Shown here: positions 410 through 18,630 of the stretch, piece by piece
Layout: every line of letters begins with the position of its first letter
Position numbering within the stretch: position 1 is the first letter of the stretch
Virus record (IMG/VR): IMGVR_UViG_3300018079_000040
Span: 1-21,283 of that record
Source: a virus
Length of the DNA: 21,283 nt
Reading direction: 5' to 3' (one strand)
Program-made: the position numbers and the translations under genes
Notes under the pieces: model-generated
The model's input: the letters and a program-made list of their open reading frames with translations, nothing else
Databases searched by the model: none
What the model was told of the DNA's origin: nothing

Positions 410-616
410 ATGTGGACCTTGATTGTACTCGTTCTCACAACAACTATCACGACAGCCACAGTAGATAAGTATTCCACCCAGGAGTTATGTCTTATTTCCC
501 AACTTCGATGGGAAAAAGAATTCTTGGCCGCATATCCAGGTGACAACGATTATATATTTGCATGTCTACAGCCAAAACCAAATGACTTACCCGACTTACC
601 CAAAGCCCAAGAGTAA
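410..616 (+). CDS. small secreted or membrane-anchored protein, 68 aa, unknown function
   Basis: The protein starts with a hydrophobic stretch (residues 2-17, IVLVL followed by a Thr-rich segment) that reads as a signal peptide or a single N-terminal anchor. The rest is a soluble domain with two cysteines (C27 and C52) that could form a disulfide in the periplasm. Small exported two-Cys proteins of this layout are common in phage genomes and usually have no assigned role. An AGGA motif at 400-403, six bases before the ATG, supports this start. The gene opens the operon and is followed two bases later by a lectin-like gene. No family could be recognised. Confidence 0.65.
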   Translation: MWTLIVLVLTTTITTATVDKYSTQELCLISQLRWEKEFLAAYPGDNDYIFACLQPKPNDLPDLPKAQE

Positions 617-618
617 CT

Positions 619-1341
619 ATGCCTACATTTACGCCTCTAGCCACAAGCACATTTACTAGGCCAGATGAAAGCCCAATATTAGAAGTAAATAAGTGGACGG
701 AGTTGACGCCTCCTGGCGGGGTGATGCAAATTACATCAAACTCGGCCCGTCCATCATCTTTTGCTAGTGATGCCGGTGCCCTCTATACAACCCTTGGCCA
801 ATCTTCTAATCAATATGCGCGTGCAAACTTTACATGTACAGGCGGATCAGTTGCTGGAGTAGGACCTTGCTTATTGTTAAGAAATGCTGTGCAGACTGTC
901 AATACCTTGTATCGCTTTTCGATCAGTAAAAAGGCCACCGGCAACGCCACTATTGCACGATTTATTAATAACGCCTATACTGAATTAGTAACTTGGACTC
1001 AGCCTTTTACGGACGGTGATGAATTTACGTTTGCCGTTGAAGGCACAAGCCTCAATCAAATTATTTTATATGCATATGATTCTGTCTTGACAGAAATACG
1101 ACAGCATGTTGATTCAAACGTGATAGCTGGTCCAAATACAGGATACAGTGGAATAGGGTATTCATCCATTGTTACTGCTTGCACTCTTGATAATTTTGAA
1201 TGCGGCTTTTTTTCAGCTAGTGTACCACCAGACTTTAAGCCACTAGGCATTCTTGATTCAAGTGCATTTCCTGATTTACTCGATAAACGTGTTACGAACA
1301 TACTAGTACCCAAATTTATAAAATTACGGAGGGTTAAATGA
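619..1341 (+). CDS. jelly-roll (concanavalin A-like) lectin-type virion protein with a capsid-like C-terminal motif
   Basis: This 240-aa protein resembles phage LamG/ConA-like proteins. It has an F-x-R-P-D-E-x-P opening (about residues 12-19), alternating beta strands, and a repeated pattern of exposed Thr/Ser/Gly with buried aromatics. By family analogy it should bind sugars or a cell surface as a fibre or decoration part. Residues 213-229 read DSSAFPDLLDKRVTNIL. That closely matches residues 6-22 of the major capsid protein encoded at 11391 (DSGAFGDLLDKRVTKLF), with 12 of the first 14 positions identical. The end of the protein is basic (KLRRVK). The binding site is weak (AAGAG at 609-613). 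The stop codon overlaps the next start as ATGA. The lectin call is from fold pattern, not a motif. Confidence 0.65.
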   Translation: MPTFTPLATSTFTRPDESPILEVNKWTELTPPGGVMQITSNSARPSSFASDAGALYTTLGQSSNQYARANFTCTGGSVAGVGPCLLLRNAVQTVNTLYRFSISKKATGNATIARFINNAYTELVTWTQPFTDGDEFTFAVEGTSLNQIILYAYDSVLTEIRQHVDSNVIAGPNTGYSGIGYSSIVTACTLDNFECGFFSASVPPDFKPLGILDSSAFPDLLDKRVTNILVPKFIKLRRVK

Positions 1342-1697
1342 AAGTATCAATCGCCAGTCTTGTAGGATTATTCGTAGTGGCACTCTTTGCCAGCCCCGTG
1401 CTGGCTGCAACGTTGACATGGGATCGTAACTCAGAGATTGACATGAAGGATTATGCAGTCTATGCATGCTTTACTGCAAACTGTATCGTAACGAAAACCC
1501 CTACGATGTTACAGCCCGGATTTACTCTGCAACCCACGGTTGGGGTGTTACCAACCCATACCCTTGATATTGTCGGAAAAGAAGGTAGCGTAGCTGTCAC
1601 GGCGCGTGACCAGGTTTTGAATGAATCAAGCCTTAGTGTGCAAGTCCCTTTCGATGCAAAGGCCCCCGTCAGTCCAGGAAGCCCACGATTCCAATAG
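1338..1697 (+). CDS. secreted fibronectin type III-like protein
   Basis: The protein is 119 aa. Residues 1-23 form a classical signal peptide: charged start, hydrophobic core and an ASPVLA cleavage box. The mature part begins ATLTWDRNSEIDMKDYAVYA, the usual first strands of an FnIII domain. It later has VTARDQVLNESSLSVQV (about residues 87-103), the usual last strands. Two cysteines (C44 and C49) sit close together. FnIII domains act as adhesion or spacer modules. An exported free-standing domain in a phage could act in the envelope of the infected cell or at release. GGAGGG at 1328-1333 gives a strong ribosome binding site inside the preceding gene, and the ATGA overlap suggests translational coupling. 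Confidence 0.65.
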   Translation: MKVSIASLVGLFVVALFASPVLAATLTWDRNSEIDMKDYAVYACFTANCIVTKTPTMLQPGFTLQPTVGVLPTHTLDIVGKEGSVAVTARDQVLNESSLSVQVPFDAKAPVSPGSPRFQ

Positions 1698-3111: not shown

Positions 3112-3186
3112 ATGATGACCGGCCTTGTAGTCGTAATTATTTTTGTTTGTCTTGTTAATTTGATATATGCAATGGAGAATCCATGA
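3112..3186 (+). CDS. 24-aa single-pass membrane peptide upstream of the holin
   Basis: The frame reads MMTGLVVVIIFVCLVNLIYA followed by MENP and stop. About 16 consecutive residues are hydrophobic, enough for one membrane helix, with a short polar tail. GAGG at 3103-3106 lies before the double ATG, and the stop TGA overlaps the holin ATG as ATGA (3183-3186), a typical translational coupling arrangement. The peptide could be a holin regulator (antiholin-like) or an accessory lysis peptide, or it may only serve to couple translation of the holin. The reading as a real gene rests on its hydrophobicity, binding site and overlap. Confidence 0.5.
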   Translation: MMTGLVVVIIFVCLVNLIYAMENP

Positions 3187-3593
3187 GTTTTATCTCAGAT
3201 ATTTTTGCAGGTGGTGCTGAAGGTGTTTTGAAAGGTGTTAAGGATGTTGTCTCAACATTCAAAGCAGATCCGTTAGAGCTTGCGAAGATTGAACATGCTA
3301 TTACTAAAGCGCAGATGGATCTTCAGCTAGGTTTATCTCAGGCTCAAACAAAGATTAATGAAATTGAGGCTGGTAGTGCTGACCGCTTTGTGTCGCGTTG
3401 GCGTCCTGCCTGTGGTTGGATCGGCGTAATAGGCTTGGGGTATGCCACTGTTTTTCATCCTGTTGCATCGTGGGCTTCAATAAATTTTGGTTTAATGCCT
3501 CCTCCGCAACTTGATACGATTATTCTTATGGAGTTGGTGACAGGGTTACTTGGGCTGGCTGGTATGCGAACGTATGAAAAGATGTTAAAGTAA
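3183..3593 (+). CDS. holin, GTA-type three-helix family
   Basis: This 136-aa protein matches the pattern of the phage and gene-transfer-agent holins often named holin of 3TMs. It has an amphipathic, charged N-terminal half (residues 1-66), then DRFVSRWRPACGWIGVIGLG (68-87) leading into a membrane segment (about 77-100), a short PPPQLD loop and a second segment (about 111-129), ending in a short basic tail. Holins make holes in the inner membrane at a set time so that endolysin can reach the wall. The start overlaps the stop of the 24-aa membrane peptide, and GGAG at 3174-3177 supplies the ribosome site. No endolysin gene is visible in the window, so the lysis genes are not all together. Confidence 0.75.
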   Translation: MSFISDIFAGGAEGVLKGVKDVVSTFKADPLELAKIEHAITKAQMDLQLGLSQAQTKINEIEAGSADRFVSRWRPACGWIGVIGLGYATVFHPVASWASINFGLMPPPQLDTIILMELVTGLLGLAGMRTYEKMLK

Positions 3594-4538: not shown

Positions 4539-6227
4539 GTGGGACAGATTATAGATCCAAGCACCGATCTGTCTAGCCTGACAGATGAACAGCTGTTTGA
4601 AGCCACCGATAGTATACTTCAATTGCAAGAAACAGACTTACAAGAGTTTGCCTTGCATTATTATGTACCAGCCAACGCTGAGGTTGCAAAGTTACACGAT
4701 TTGACATGTGGCACAATTGGGATTTTTGGTGGTAACGGATCAGGGAAGACGGAACATGCCTTGGTTGAAGGTATCATACGTTCGACTGGTCGTATTCCTG
4801 AAAGTCTACGTTATACGTACCCGCGACAGAAGCTACGTGGTCCAATTCATATGAGGGTGGTCTGTGAATCGATAACAGCTATCCTAGAACCGATCATTTT
4901 ACCAAAGCTCCAATATTGGAGTTGGTCTGGGTTAAATCCGCAGGGCGGTATAAAAGGCCACTGGGGATGGATCCCACGTCATTGTTTAGTCGGTGGGGAT
5001 TGGAAAAAGAGTTATAACACTAGGACACGAATGTTGAATGTCAGGTATCTTAACCCTGATACAGACAAGTTTGAAGGTTATTCAACTATTCAGTTCATGA
5101 GTTACGATCAAGACCCAGAGAATTTCGCCTCCGGCGATGTTCATTATTGCTTACACGATGAACCTCCTCCGTTTCCAATCTGGCGTGAAAACCGTGCTCG
5201 TGTTATGAGAGGTGGCTCAGGATCTACGATGGTCGTGTCCATGACATGGCCTGATAATCCTGCTAGTCCTGTTGATTGGATCTTCGATGAGATCTATGAC
5301 AAGGGGATGCCTGGAACGTTGAAGCACGATGATATTGAAGTTATCAATATCTTCACAACGATGAATCCGCACTTGGATCAAACTAAGGTTGCGGAGAGTG
5401 CTTCACTCATGACAAAGACCGAAAAGAGTACTCGTATCTATGGTCTACCTATTCGATTTAGTAACCGGATTCATCCTGACTTCACCAATCAAGACAAATG
5501 GTGGTGTTACGAATGCGGGAACATAACCCTGGTAGATTCAGATGATAAATGCTCTGACTGTAAGTCACATGAGGTTGGTATATATAATAATGTTGAAATT
5601 TGTATTCCTAATACACACTATCCGTGCATTTGCTTGCTCGACCCTCATCCGCGTAAGCCTCACTTCCTTTTATGGGTACAAGTTACTCCGAACGAAGATT
5701 ATGAAGTAATTGCTAGCCTTCAAGTTGAAGGCGGGGCTGAATCTGTACGTGATGAAGTAAAACTTATTGAAGAACAATTACAGCACAAATATATTACTCG
5801 TATTATGGACCCAAACATGGGGGCACAACCGAGTGGTGCGAAACGCGACCTTACATGGCAAATGGAATTTGACAATGTTGGATTACATTTTGATTTAGGT
5901 GACGATAGTAGTGTAGGGCGTGCAAGACTAAACGATTTTATTCGGCCTGATCGTAATTTTAGACGCACGCGCTTGAGAGTCGATCCCTCATGTGACGATG
6001 TTATTTTTCAGATGATGCGCTATGTGTGGGCCGATCATAAAAACGCTGAGAATAAGGATATTTCACAAGTGCCTTTACAGAAGCACGACGACTTCCCTAC
6101 ATTGTTAAAGTATCTCATGAACTATCTACCAGCAGGAGTATTTTCTACTCCTACTATTTATAAGCGTGAGCGTAGTACTTCAGATTACAAAATTAAGGAT
6201 ACAAGGGTGAACTATGGCAGAGGGTGA
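4539..6227 (+). CDS. terL: terminase large subunit (DNA packaging ATPase and nuclease)
   Basis: The 562-aa motor protein pumps DNA into the empty head and cuts it. Walker A is GGNGSGKT (residues 64-71), preceded by GTIGIF. Walker B is the strand VHYCLHDEPP with HDE at 206-208. The C-terminal RNase H-like nuclease has candidate acidic residues at D368 (LLDPHP), D424 (RIMDPN) and D517/D518 (KHDDFPTLLKYL). Between ATPase and nuclease, C323-x2-C326 and C338-x2-C341 form a zinc-ribbon-like insertion, which is unusual. The start is GTG with a strong AAGGGGGGAG site; the next in-frame ATG candidates lie beyond Walker A. The end overlaps the portal gene by 14 bases. Confidence 0.93.
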   Translation: MGQIIDPSTDLSSLTDEQLFEATDSILQLQETDLQEFALHYYVPANAEVAKLHDLTCGTIGIFGGNGSGKTEHALVEGIIRSTGRIPESLRYTYPRQKLRGPIHMRVVCESITAILEPIILPKLQYWSWSGLNPQGGIKGHWGWIPRHCLVGGDWKKSYNTRTRMLNVRYLNPDTDKFEGYSTIQFMSYDQDPENFASGDVHYCLHDEPPPFPIWRENRARVMRGGSGSTMVVSMTWPDNPASPVDWIFDEIYDKGMPGTLKHDDIEVINIFTTMNPHLDQTKVAESASLMTKTEKSTRIYGLPIRFSNRIHPDFTNQDKWWCYECGNITLVDSDDKCSDCKSHEVGIYNNVEICIPNTHYPCICLLDPHPRKPHFLLWVQVTPNEDYEVIASLQVEGGAESVRDEVKLIEEQLQHKYITRIMDPNMGAQPSGAKRDLTWQMEFDNVGLHFDLGDDSSVGRARLNDFIRPDRNFRRTRLRVDPSCDDVIFQMMRYVWADHKNAENKDISQVPLQKHDDFPTLLKYLMNYLPAGVFSTPTIYKRERSTSDYKIKDTRVNYGRG

Positions 6228-8715
6228 AGGGTACACAGACGAAATACAGCCTCCTGCTAACGGAGGAATGGAAGAGTCAATCCCAGGGGCACCCACAGGT
6301 CCAAATGATATTCTGGAAGGTGAAGAACCAGTTGGGTTTTTTATTCAACCGCCTCAACGTAAGAAAACACTGGTGAAGGATAAGCCAAAGACTGTCGCCA
6401 CACTTATTAAAAAATATGGCGATAATCTTATGGATCGGTCGGACTGGACAGAACGTAGAATTCAACGTACTGCAAAGTACCGTGGATGGCGTGAAACAAA
6501 GACGTTCCCTTGGGAGAACGCAAGCAACGCTCACTTACCGATTATTATGACCGACGTTCAACGGACAGAAGATACGTTGCACAATGCCGTGCTGTCTGTT
6601 CGGCCTGTGATGACTGCCAAGGCTATGAGCAAGGCTTGGGAGGTAAAAGAGAAAGTAGTTGATAATCTCATCGATCATCAAGTATTTGTTGAGAACTTCG
6701 GTGAAGTTCGTATTGGTAACTTGATTTCGGCATTTACGCAAGATGGTCAGTTTATTGCTTACGTTCCGTACATTAAGGAAAAGCAAAAAGTTACTCGTGT
6801 TTACATGATCGATTTCCCACCTGATAAAAACTCGTGGGATAAATGGATTATGAAACACTTGTATGAGTATTTTCCGAAATCCACTATTTTGCCTGGTGAT
6901 AAAGCGCCGTGGAGTTGGGTAATAAAAACTCAACACCCGTTGACTGGTGAAACAGTTATTGAAAAAATTGAGGTTGTACGCGATGGAGAAGAAGATAGAG
7001 CACAGTTACTCTGCCACAAAGACGAAACAATCTTTGACGGCCCTTCACTTATCCCCAAAGAGCTTGAAGACATTGTGGTGCCTGGTCGTTGTGAGAACCT
7101 CCAGCCGCAAACCATGTCAAATCCAACTGGTGCGCCTCACGTCTTCATGGTAGATTATCCCTCAAAGGATGAGATACTAAAACTAATTGAAAGTGGTTTC
7201 TATGATGAAGTCAGTACTGAAGACAAAGCTAAAATAAAGGCAACAACTAAACGCAAGACTGACGCACGTGATCCTGAAGAACAAAAAACACTACAAGACG
7301 ATTTGACTGGTATACAGACTGGTACGTATGCAGATGAGCAAGAAGATCCGTTTGTACGTTTGACCTATTTTGGGCGTGAAGATATTGACGGTGACGGGTT
7401 TGAAGAGGAAGTAGTTTATTGGTTCTTAGAGAATCCTCAAGTGTTCTTGAGAGCACGATACTTGACAGAAGTATATCCTACTACTCCAATGCGTCGTCCT
7501 TTTGCAATGGCAAAGTACATTCCTGTCAACGGGCAGTTCTACGCAATCGGACTTATCGAACTTATGGAGTCTGGATACGATATTATCAAGAAAACTTTCG
7601 ATCAGATGGTGGATAGTGGTGACTTGACAAATACGCCGTGGGGATTTTACCGGCCTATGTCTGGTATTCGTCCTGAAGTAATGCGTATGGGTCCAGGTGA
7701 CTTGTACCCAACAAATGATCCAAAAAACGATGTGCATTATCCAACATTACCACAAGGGATGGCCAGTTTTGGACACAACCTTATTACTCTCGTCAGTCAG
7801 ATTCTCGATCAAACTACTCTTGTGGGTCAGTTGCAACTTGGAGGAGTACCGGCAGGTAAGTCTTCTGCTTTGCGAACAACTCAAAACATGCAATCGTTAC
7901 TTCAGCAAGGCGATGCACGGCCTGAACGTGTTATGCGTCGTTTCTTTGGTGGGCTTGTTGAAATTTGGCATCAGTTTCATGAACTAAACCAGATCTTTTT
8001 ACCAAAGGCCAAACAGTTTCGCATTTCGTCAGGAATGACAAAAGAAGCCAACCCGTTTGTAACTGTTGGTAGTCGTGAAGAGATTACTGGTCGGTTTATG
8101 TTTGAATTCGGTGCCAGTATTTTGAACACCAATAGAGCATTGGCTACCTCTGCCTTACAAGATATGTTTGGTGTGCTTGTCAATCCCTTGCTGTTTCAAC
8201 TTGGAATTGTATCCCCAACAAACGTGCATACCCTTTTGAGTGATTGGATTAGAGCACGAGGGCAAGATCCACAGAAGTATATTACATCTCCGACAAACGA
8301 TCCGTTTGGCGATATGGTTAAGATTTCTGCTGAAGATGCCCTTCTGACGATCGTGAACAATTATTATCCATATGGTAGGCCAATGGAGCCACTAATTGAG
8401 CACTTACGGAAGTTGCAAGAATTTGTAAGTGACAAGAAAAATATGGATCTGCTGACACCATCGCAAGTTCAAATGCTTAGTCAATATTCAGCCGAACGAG
8501 TTTCAGAGCTTCAGCAACAGATGCAGCAACAACAGCTTATGGCGAATGCTGCATTGATGCAACAGTCAATGGGTGGTGGTGAAGGACAAGAGGCTGGTAA
8601 GGCTGCAACGGCTTCTAATCCCCCTAACACAGGTCCAGGTGGGAACGCGAAGGTGCAAGGTAATGAAATGCTCGATGAGTCACTTCCAGGCGCTGGTGGT
8701 GGGGCTAACGGATGA
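6214..8715 (+). CDS. portal protein
   Basis: An 833-aa protein right after the large terminase, in the place and size range of portals of short-tailed phages. The portal dodecamer forms the DNA gate at one head vertex, docks the terminase and later the tail. The N-terminus (1-55) is acidic and Pro-rich; the conserved start of the fold is seen as SDWTERRIQRTAKYRGWRET (76-95) and SNAHLPIIMTD...SVRPVMTAKA (104-137). The core is mixed alpha/beta, followed by helices. The last roughly 70 residues are Gln- and Gly-rich (ELQQQMQQQQ, then a Gly/Ala/Asn tail), likely a flexible barrel end inside the head. AAGGGTG at 6203-6209 is its ribosome site. It overlaps the next start as ATGA. Confidence 0.85.
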   Translation: MAEGEGYTDEIQPPANGGMEESIPGAPTGPNDILEGEEPVGFFIQPPQRKKTLVKDKPKTVATLIKKYGDNLMDRSDWTERRIQRTAKYRGWRETKTFPWENASNAHLPIIMTDVQRTEDTLHNAVLSVRPVMTAKAMSKAWEVKEKVVDNLIDHQVFVENFGEVRIGNLISAFTQDGQFIAYVPYIKEKQKVTRVYMIDFPPDKNSWDKWIMKHLYEYFPKSTILPGDKAPWSWVIKTQHPLTGETVIEKIEVVRDGEEDRAQLLCHKDETIFDGPSLIPKELEDIVVPGRCENLQPQTMSNPTGAPHVFMVDYPSKDEILKLIESGFYDEVSTEDKAKIKATTKRKTDARDPEEQKTLQDDLTGIQTGTYADEQEDPFVRLTYFGREDIDGDGFEEEVVYWFLENPQVFLRARYLTEVYPTTPMRRPFAMAKYIPVNGQFYAIGLIELMESGYDIIKKTFDQMVDSGDLTNTPWGFYRPMSGIRPEVMRMGPGDLYPTNDPKNDVHYPTLPQGMASFGHNLITLVSQILDQTTLVGQLQLGGVPAGKSSALRTTQNMQSLLQQGDARPERVMRRFFGGLVEIWHQFHELNQIFLPKAKQFRISSGMTKEANPFVTVGSREEITGRFMFEFGASILNTNRALATSALQDMFGVLVNPLLFQLGIVSPTNVHTLLSDWIRARGQDPQKYITSPTNDPFGDMVKISAEDALLTIVNNYYPYGRPMEPLIEHLRKLQEFVSDKKNMDLLTPSQVQMLSQYSAERVSELQQQMQQQQLMANAALMQQSMGGGEGQEAGKAATASNPPNTGPGGNAKVQGNEMLDESLPGAGGGANG

Positions 8716-11390: not shown

Positions 11391-12308
11391 ATGGGTGTAC
11401 CTCATGATTCAGGGGCATTTGGTGATCTACTCGATAAGAGAGTTACCAAGTTGTTCTATGATGAATTAACGCAGTTACCCGATAGGGTTGGCGAATTTTA
11501 CGCTATGGACACATCCAAAGACAGCTTTGAAAAGTGGTCCGGCGTAGGTGAGATTGGTGATTTCACTGAGTTTAATGGTTCAGTGGCTTACCAAAGTCAA
11601 TCGCAGGGTTATGACGTGACAGCAGAGCACAGAGCGTTTGTAAACGGGTTTCAAGTAACTCGTCAGATGTACGATGATGATCGGCATGGGATTTGGGAGA
11701 GAAAGTCTCCTGCACTTGCGAATGCGTATTCACGCACTCGTCAAGGTCATGGTGCTCGTGTTTTCAATTTCGCATTTTCAAATGACTCGTTCTTCTACAA
11801 CAACACAGAAGCTGTGGCGTTGTGCTCGGACAGTCATACCACAACGTCAGGTGCATCGACAGCCGTTGGCTTCGATAACTTGACAACTGCATCATTTACT
11901 GCAACTGGCGTTTCGGTCTTACGCACACAAATGCGTGGTTTCCGAGGTGATGTTGCTAATAAGATCAGTGTCATGCCGGATAAATTAGTATATCCGATTG
12001 ATTTGGCTGATCGTGCAGATGAAATTATCAAGTCTAGCAAAGATCCTAATTCGGCTAACAATGCCTATAACCCACAAGGTAATGGTCGTTGGACTGGTAC
12101 AGATTGGGAATACTTGAGCGATACTAACAATTGGTTCATGCTTGATACCAAGAATGCCAAACAGTGGTTGGTGTGGTTTGATCGTATTCCTCTTGAGTTC
12201 GGCAAGGCAGAAGAGTTTGACAGCTTTGTAGCCAAGTGGCGTGCATACTGTCGGTATTCTTATATGTGGCTGAACTGGAGATGGATCGCAGGGGCGGAAG
12301 TTTCATAA
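11391..12308 (+). CDS. major capsid protein
   Basis: The 305-aa protein sits where the shell protein is expected: after portal, scaffold and decoration genes. The N-terminus DSGAFGDLLDKRVTKLFYDE (residues 6-25) matches the opening of phage capsid proteins of this group (DSGAF-x-DLLD-x-R), followed by a beta-rich domain (YDVTAEHRAFVNGFQVTRQM) and a long middle helix (about 102-130), consistent with the HK97-type fold. It ends in an aromatic-rich tail (KWRAYCRYSYMWLNWRW). Several hundred copies would form the head. It has a strong site (AAGGGAG) and an upstream hairpin, as expected for a highly made protein. Residues 6-22 recur at the end of the lectin-like protein at 619. Confidence 0.85.
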   Translation: MGVPHDSGAFGDLLDKRVTKLFYDELTQLPDRVGEFYAMDTSKDSFEKWSGVGEIGDFTEFNGSVAYQSQSQGYDVTAEHRAFVNGFQVTRQMYDDDRHGIWERKSPALANAYSRTRQGHGARVFNFAFSNDSFFYNNTEAVALCSDSHTTTSGASTAVGFDNLTTASFTATGVSVLRTQMRGFRGDVANKISVMPDKLVYPIDLADRADEIIKSSKDPNSANNAYNPQGNGRWTGTDWEYLSDTNNWFMLDTKNAKQWLVWFDRIPLEFGKAEEFDSFVAKWRAYCRYSYMWLNWRWIAGAEVS

Positions 12309-12549: not shown

Positions 12550-12626
12550 GCAGGTGTAGCTCAGCTGGTAGAGCAGTGCTTTTGTAAAGCACAGGTCGCA
12601 GGTTCGATTCCATGCCACTTGCTCCA
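12550..12626 (+). tRNA. tRNA-Thr, anticodon TGT, with encoded CCA and an odd T stem
   Basis: The acceptor stem is GCAGGTG (12550-12556) with CACTTGC (12616-12622), including one G-T pair. The D arm is GCTC/GAGC with an eight-base loop. The anticodon stem is GTGCT (12576-12580) and AGCAC (12588-12592) with loop TTTGTAA, giving anticodon TGT, which reads ACA (Thr). The T loop is TTCGATT and CCA is encoded at 12624-12626. GCAGG (12598-12602) pairs with CC-TGC only if A12612 is bulged, so the T arm has one extra base. It lies between two tiny genes in a late operon, and the phage uses ACA freely, so it may support late translation. Confidence 0.88.
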
Positions 12627-17991: not shown

Positions 17992-18630
17992 ATGTGGAGC
18001 GGACAAGCATGGAGTGCCGCACCTTGGTCGGCTGAAGCAGTAGTTATACAACCAATAATTGACGTTACAGATGGTAATATCTCAGCCCAAAATGCAACAG
18101 TCGATGGGGAAGGACTTAGTACCTCATTAAGTACAGACGGTGTTATTACTGCACAAGCTGCGACGGTAGCTGGTTCAGGATTAAGTACTTCGCTTTCTAC
18201 TGACGGTGTTATCGTTTCACAAAATGCTAGCCTGGTAGGAGTTGGCGAGGTTGGTGATCCTACTATTTCTGGTACAGGTGTCTTAGTATCACAAGCATCA
18301 GATATAACTGGTGAAGGGCTGAGTGCTTCGTTGTCAACTGACGGAGCAATCTCTGCACAAGCTGCGACATTAGCTGGCGTTGGTCTGAGTGCTTCACTCT
18401 CAACAGACGGAGTGATCTTAGCAGGGTCTGCAGTAATTGTAGGCGTGGGTGAAGTCACAGGTGGAGCTGCAGGGGGTTATTCTATTTACAGATTACGCTT
18501 AAAGCGTCATGATATACACATTATTCGTAAACATAGACGAAGAGTATCTTATTTTGAAGGTTTGATAGGAACAACATGTCAACAACCACTGAAGTACGCA
18601 CGTTTACCGATATCTTTACAGAGATCTTGA
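17992..18630 (+). CDS. 22-residue-repeat virion protein with basic C-terminus
   Basis: The 212-aa protein starts with MWSGQAWSAAPWSAEA, a Trp/Ala/Ser-rich head, then six repeats of about 22 residues (27 to about 160; consensus DGVISAQAATVAGxGLSTSL), then a basic tail (YRLRLKRHDIHIIRKHRRRV). Such Ala/Ser/Gly-rich short repeats can form an elongated beta structure in fibres or surface proteins. The repeats form two sets of three. The start at 17992 has GAGG at 17982-17985; an in-frame ATG at 17968 is cut off by a TAA just before it. Its end overlaps the next gene by 55 bases. The exact function is unknown; virion location is inferred from its neighbours. Confidence 0.6.
   Translation: MWSGQAWSAAPWSAEAVVIQPIIDVTDGNISAQNATVDGEGLSTSLSTDGVITAQAATVAGSGLSTSLSTDGVIVSQNASLVGVGEVGDPTISGTGVLVSQASDITGEGLSASLSTDGAISAQAATLAGVGLSASLSTDGVILAGSAVIVGVGEVTGGAAGGYSIYRLRLKRHDIHIIRKHRRRVSYFEGLIGTTCQQPLKYARLPISLQRS
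18070..18470 (+). repeat. six coding repeats of about 66 bases, in two sets of three
   Basis: The repeat units start near D27, D49, D71, T95, D117 and D139 of the protein at 17992. Units 1, 2, 4 and 5 end in GLSxSLST, while units 3 and 6 end in VGVGEV, so the array is a duplicated three-unit block of about 68 residues. The opposite strand is open through the repeats as a by-product. Confidence 0.7.

Follow-up and report, generated by a model that had tools for sequence, protein, structure and literature searches.

A capsid-gene fragment carried in frame at the 3' end of a phage accessory gene, probably the scar of an illegitimate recombination

We found that, in the 21,283-nt stretch of viral DNA analyzed here (the window), the 3' part of an accessory gene carries a segment (1251 to 1298, plus strand; codons D213 to T226 and their edges) that matches the 5' end of the major capsid protein (MCP) gene at 38 of 48 nucleotides and has abrupt ends. 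The accessory gene (619 to 1341, plus strand) encodes 240 aa, and its frame is likewise open in a second record (IMGVR 3300018063_000032), which is 99.98% identical over the whole window and has the same tail. The matching segment of the MCP gene lies at 11401 to 11448 on the plus strand, where the DNA alignment and an AlphaFold model place it in residues 4 to 19 of the N-arm. The best explanation of the tail is probably that it is an MCP 5' fragment captured by illegitimate recombination, with the MCP gene of the window (11391 to 12308, plus strand; 305 aa) as the source of the segment or the source's sister.

The protein at 11391 matches the Pfam families PF25209 (Phage_capsid_4; 42.1 bits, cut-off 27) and PF10124 (Mu-like_gpT; 36.1 bits, cut-off 20.1). 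Its AlphaFold model, built with 22 sequences, has a pLDDT of 81 and an N-terminal helix at residues 10 to 28, and a Foldseek search with this model returned the capsids of D3, HK97, JBD30, and Mu with E-values from 1e-11 to 3e-8. By its family matches and its predicted fold with an N-arm helix, the protein is thus an HK97-fold MCP of the Mu gpT-like type. Other head proteins in the window are SU10-like, so that these are combined here with a Mu gpT-like MCP: the gene at 6214 to 8715 encodes an SU10-type portal, and the product of 18576 to 19598 matches an SU10 adaptor just under the cut-off. In addition, positions 3183 to 3593 encode a GTA-type holin with three transmembrane segments. A tRNA-Thr (TGT) lies at 12550 to 12626, between the MCP gene and the next gene, and a tRNA follows the MCP gene in the related contigs L044 and L007 as well. 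The MCP genes of these two contigs (8713 to 9366 in L044 and 3149 to 3774 in L007) each carry an interruption, near codon 96 in the former and near codon 249 in the latter; the L007 insert contains a group I intron (Rfam RF00028) and an HNH-like open reading frame, and the L044 insert contains a LAGLIDADG-like open reading frame (LAWLAGIFDGEGT) and gave no Rfam match even at an E-value of 0.1.

An earlier note on this DNA had reported that the C-terminal part of the 619 protein and the MCP share 12 of 14 residues and 33 of 42 bases, and we reproduced both counts exactly, with residues 213 to 226 of the accessory protein (DSSAFPDLLDKRVT) aligned to MCP residues 6 to 19 (DSGAFGDLLDKRVT). Over the 17-residue span given in that note, identity is 12/17 at the amino acid level and 37/51 at the nucleotide level. 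The best DNA alignment is the 48-bp segment, with an E-value of 2e-8 when gene is compared with gene; a search of the virus's 33-kb genome with the 117-bp tail gave 8e-8, and the pairwise protein E-value was 9e-5. Past this segment, no DNA similarity to the MCP gene was detected in either direction (shuffle P of 0.79 downstream and 0.13 upstream). Because the similarity stops at 48 bp, a longer, degraded MCP paralogue is ruled out. At the protein level, the ten residues that follow the tail core show a weak hydrophobic resemblance to MCP residues 20 to 29 (P about 0.02 to 0.03).

The DNA identity in this stretch is also greater than the protein match alone would give. When the two peptides are fixed and codons are drawn according to the window's usage, 27.5 identical bases are expected, compared to the 33 of 42 observed (P = 0.017), and the same codon is used at 8 of the 12 shared residues (P = 0.03). 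Since the codons would be independent if the peptides had converged, identity above random codon choice favors common DNA descent of the tail and the MCP segment over convergence, though not overwhelmingly.

The distribution of the peptide gives a direction to this relationship. We scanned 2.9 million viral contigs for the signature F-x-DLLDKR[IV]T, encoded as degenerate DNA, and obtained 18 matches, of which one was the tail under study, in the near-identical record, and all the others were MCP N-termini. The same signature had 13 matches in 257 Gb of cellular genomes, in unrelated contexts and with no MCP among them. Because, apart from this one tail, only MCP N-termini carry the signature among the viral contigs, the segment appears to be an MCP signature that moved from the capsid gene into the accessory gene. 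The tail is also closest to the MCPs of its own clade, with 33 of 42 bases identical to the window's MCP gene and that of L003, 30 of 42 to those of L044 and L046, and 25 to 27 of 42 to those of L004, L007, and L050.

The accessory gene itself has the features of an insertion. Its left neighbor, g410 (410 to 616, plus strand; 68 aa), is 33% identical over 46 residues to a protein encoded at 37838 to 38023 of the related genome G005 (E = 6e-6), and its right neighbor, g1338 (1338 to 1697, plus strand; 119 aa, with a signal-peptide-like start), is 57 to 58% identical to the product of G005 positions 38020 to 38376, 66% identical to a protein of L078, and 34 to 37% identical to a protein of G003. 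In G005, whose MCP is 79% identical to that of the window, the g410 and g1338 homologues are adjacent, with no intervening gene, and the stop codon of one overlaps the start codon of the other. In L078, the gene upstream of the g1338 homologue is another one, which by eye resembles an M15 peptidase gene, and in G003 the homologue is elsewhere and on the other strand. The slot is empty in G005 and filled by another gene in L078, and the 619 gene therefore resembles an accessory insertion between g410 and g1338 that carries the MCP piece close to its 3' border. The gene lies in an accessory/lysis region, outside the structural cluster.

Among other phage proteins, those designated L158 (271 aa), L159 (232 aa), L163, L165, L167, and L168 share a C-terminal tail, MM-x-G-x-G-R/S-stop, and are otherwise unlike one another (LamG-like, glycine-rich, or strand-rich); two of them lie near a g1338 homologue. 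A scan with this pattern gave 11 matches, about half in real-looking proteins and the rest resembling chance, and we regard the motif as a candidate shared C-terminal tag.

We found no relatives of the 619 protein other than its copy in the 99.98% identical record, in searches of viral contigs, INPHARED, genome contigs, Pfam, PHROGs, NCBIfam, and PDB sequences. The earlier note had called the protein "lectin-like"; no lectin family or fold match was obtained in Pfam, PHROG, NCBIfam, or PDB sequences, and the label, without database support, is unconfirmed. A single-sequence AlphaFold prediction consisted mostly of strands and was uninformative (mean pLDDT of 34). Of the five differences between the near-identical record and the window, two fall in the accessory gene (window positions 1169 and 1186), and both alter the amino acid (I184T and L190F), a clustering with a P of about 0.01. 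Elsewhere in the window, the gene at 17992 encodes an internal protein repeat, in which two 109-bp stretches (18105 to 18213 and 18309 to 18417) are 71% identical.

The earlier note had offered a trace of ancient recombination as one of two readings of the match, and our data support a trace of recombination: the DNA identity exceeds that implied by the peptides, the ends are abrupt, and the host gene is an insertion. As in other mosaic genes, the shared segment ends abruptly and is of common DNA descent, and the gene is missing from its slot in relatives, with the limits here that only one lineage carries the tail and that the border of the insertion is not located to single-base precision. 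In the sequence of events that we propose, the accessory gene would have been inserted between g410 and g1338 in this phage lineage, and about 48 bp of an MCP 5' end would have been picked up at or near its 3' border, the donor being the phage's own gene or the gene of a closely related phage in the same cell. The capture probably occurred by illegitimate, microhomology-type recombination, either while the accessory gene was being inserted or later. The piece would have entered in frame, adding 14 to 16 residues of new C-terminus and leaving a short stretch of codons before the stop by the g1338 ribosome site, and the resulting tail would have no special capsid function. The event cannot be reconstructed, because no homologue of the 619 protein, and hence no parental form lacking the tail, was found in the collections searched.

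The other reading raised in the earlier note was a docking tag, in which the tail would mimic the MCP N-arm and occupy an N-arm site, bringing the accessory protein onto or into the capsid, for example, at the procapsid or the portal vertex. The copied segment is indeed from the N-arm, in which AlphaFold predicts a helix at residues 10 to 28. In the Mu-like phage JBD30, N-arm residues 6 to 25 are helical in the procapsid; at maturation this helix unfolds and rotates, and the arm bridges capsomers and bends at the portal (PMC11445458). Docking would also fit the state of the peptide. In the core DLLDKRVT, all base differences from the phage's own MCP gene are silent and the peptide is unchanged; nine neutral changes from the present MCP sequence would leave at least 12 of 14 residues with a P of about 0.003, a test that is biased by ascertainment, since a less conserved copy would have escaped notice, which explains part of the excess. 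The weak continuation of hydrophobic positions past the core points in the same direction. A peptide kept beyond neutral decay implies either that the tail is under protein-level constraint or that the donor was an unsampled MCP allele that had already diverged, and the second possibility explains the MCP-like substitution pattern equally well: pairs of MCPs that share 32 to 33 of 42 bases share 11 to 13 of 14 residues, the same as the tail. We found no other positive evidence for docking.

Several observations weigh against a docking role. The tail holds only half of the predicted arm helix, the confidently predicted part (MCP residues 21 to 30) is not conserved in it, and the tail has a proline in the middle of that part; the location of the gene, away from the structural genes, also does not favor a capsid component. 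In addition, in 53 further MCP contigs, no other protein carried the N-arm of its own phage (maximum of 8/14), and none was found in the relatives compared earlier, where two readings of 14/14 were the MCP's own frame and where the L044 entry began at the second MCP exon and was thus not a proper comparison. We therefore reject a general family of N-arm-tagged proteins, which had no member in either set. A literature search found nothing direct on N-arm mimicry or on MCP fragments in accessory genes. On balance, we consider a docking tag unlikely.

A captured tail could also have been retained for another use, such as folding or stabilizing the protein, or simply to provide a stop codon and the spacing needed to translate g1338. 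The last codons (NILVPKFIKLRRVK region) and stop of the accessory gene (1299 to 1341, plus strand) overlap the start of g1338 in an ATGA sequence and hold its GGAGG-like ribosome site, and G005, in which another gene lies upstream of the g1338 homologue, retains this overlap. This proposal, however, accounts for neither the MCP-likeness nor the conservation of the peptide, and no direct evidence supports it; we regard it as quite improbable.

Chance or convergent likeness of two unrelated peptides is a very improbable source of the match. It would be compatible with the modest protein E-value, with the fact that a single short stretch is involved, and with the 13 unrelated cellular matches to the same degenerate pattern. 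However, when all the window's proteins were compared with one another, the next best 14-residue pair had 9 identities, and 30 shuffled protein sets peaked at 8 or 9 of 14. These shuffles, together with the DNA scores of 2e-8 to 8e-8, the codon identity above random, and the best match of the tail to the MCP of its own clade, led us to dismiss chance. An assembly chimera is unlikely, as 10 of 48 bases differ between the copy and the MCP gene and the second record has exactly the same tail, and so is a DNA- or RNA-level element, as the MCP relatives keep the peptide while their DNA varies (21 to 33 of 42 bases identical to the tail and 21 to 40 of 42 to the window's MCP gene) and the 33-kb genome holds only two copies.

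The idea of docking is nevertheless physically reasonable by analogy with known capsid-targeting systems. Cargo proteins of Encapsulin Family 1 carry a C-terminal targeting peptide (of the SDGSLGIGSLKRS type) that directs them to an HK97-fold shell, where it binds a pocket made partly by the N-terminal helix of the shell protein (PMC8346489). The tail resembles this arrangement in being a short C-terminal peptide on a non-shell protein in an HK97-fold system. It does not fit the pattern of Encapsulin Family 1, since it differs from the SDGSLGIGSLKRS consensus and a phage MCP, encoded next to a portal gene, makes up the shell here, and, unlike cargo peptides, it copies the shell's own N-arm and is known in one lineage. 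A working N-arm mimic would be the phage counterpart of these peptides, a tag that copies the shell itself, although we think this improbable. If docking holds, the 619 protein would likewise combine a putative exposed domain with a segment that binds the capsid, as do the capsid decoration proteins T5 pb10 and T4 Hoc; in contrast, pb10 binds the hexamer centers by a helical domain of its own and not by a copy of the MCP N-arm (PMC5292684). Compared to the arms of the Mu and JBD30 MCPs, the copied residues 6 to 19 correspond in position to the JBD30 N-arm, which is described only as part of the MCP (PMC11445458), whereas the copy here sits on an accessory protein. If the tail does bind, it would show that a phage can derive a capsid-targeting tag from a copy of its own shell protein's N-arm, and such a tag could be useful for loading or decorating HK97-type capsids.

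Under the preferred reading, a recombination scar, the match is real and of an ordinary kind, being unusual in its capsid-gene donor and its in-frame retention. Illegitimate-recombination scars and gene mosaicism are familiar in tailed phages. Like such scars, this one comprises an accessory gene between conserved neighbors with a foreign, sharp-ended fragment in its 3' part; unlike the usual ones, it draws its fragment from a capsid gene of the type that the phage itself carries, and the fragment, still in frame, forms a C-terminal tail. As a scar, it would thus be a clean case in which part of a structural gene was joined in frame to an accessory gene, with both the source and the slot identifiable.
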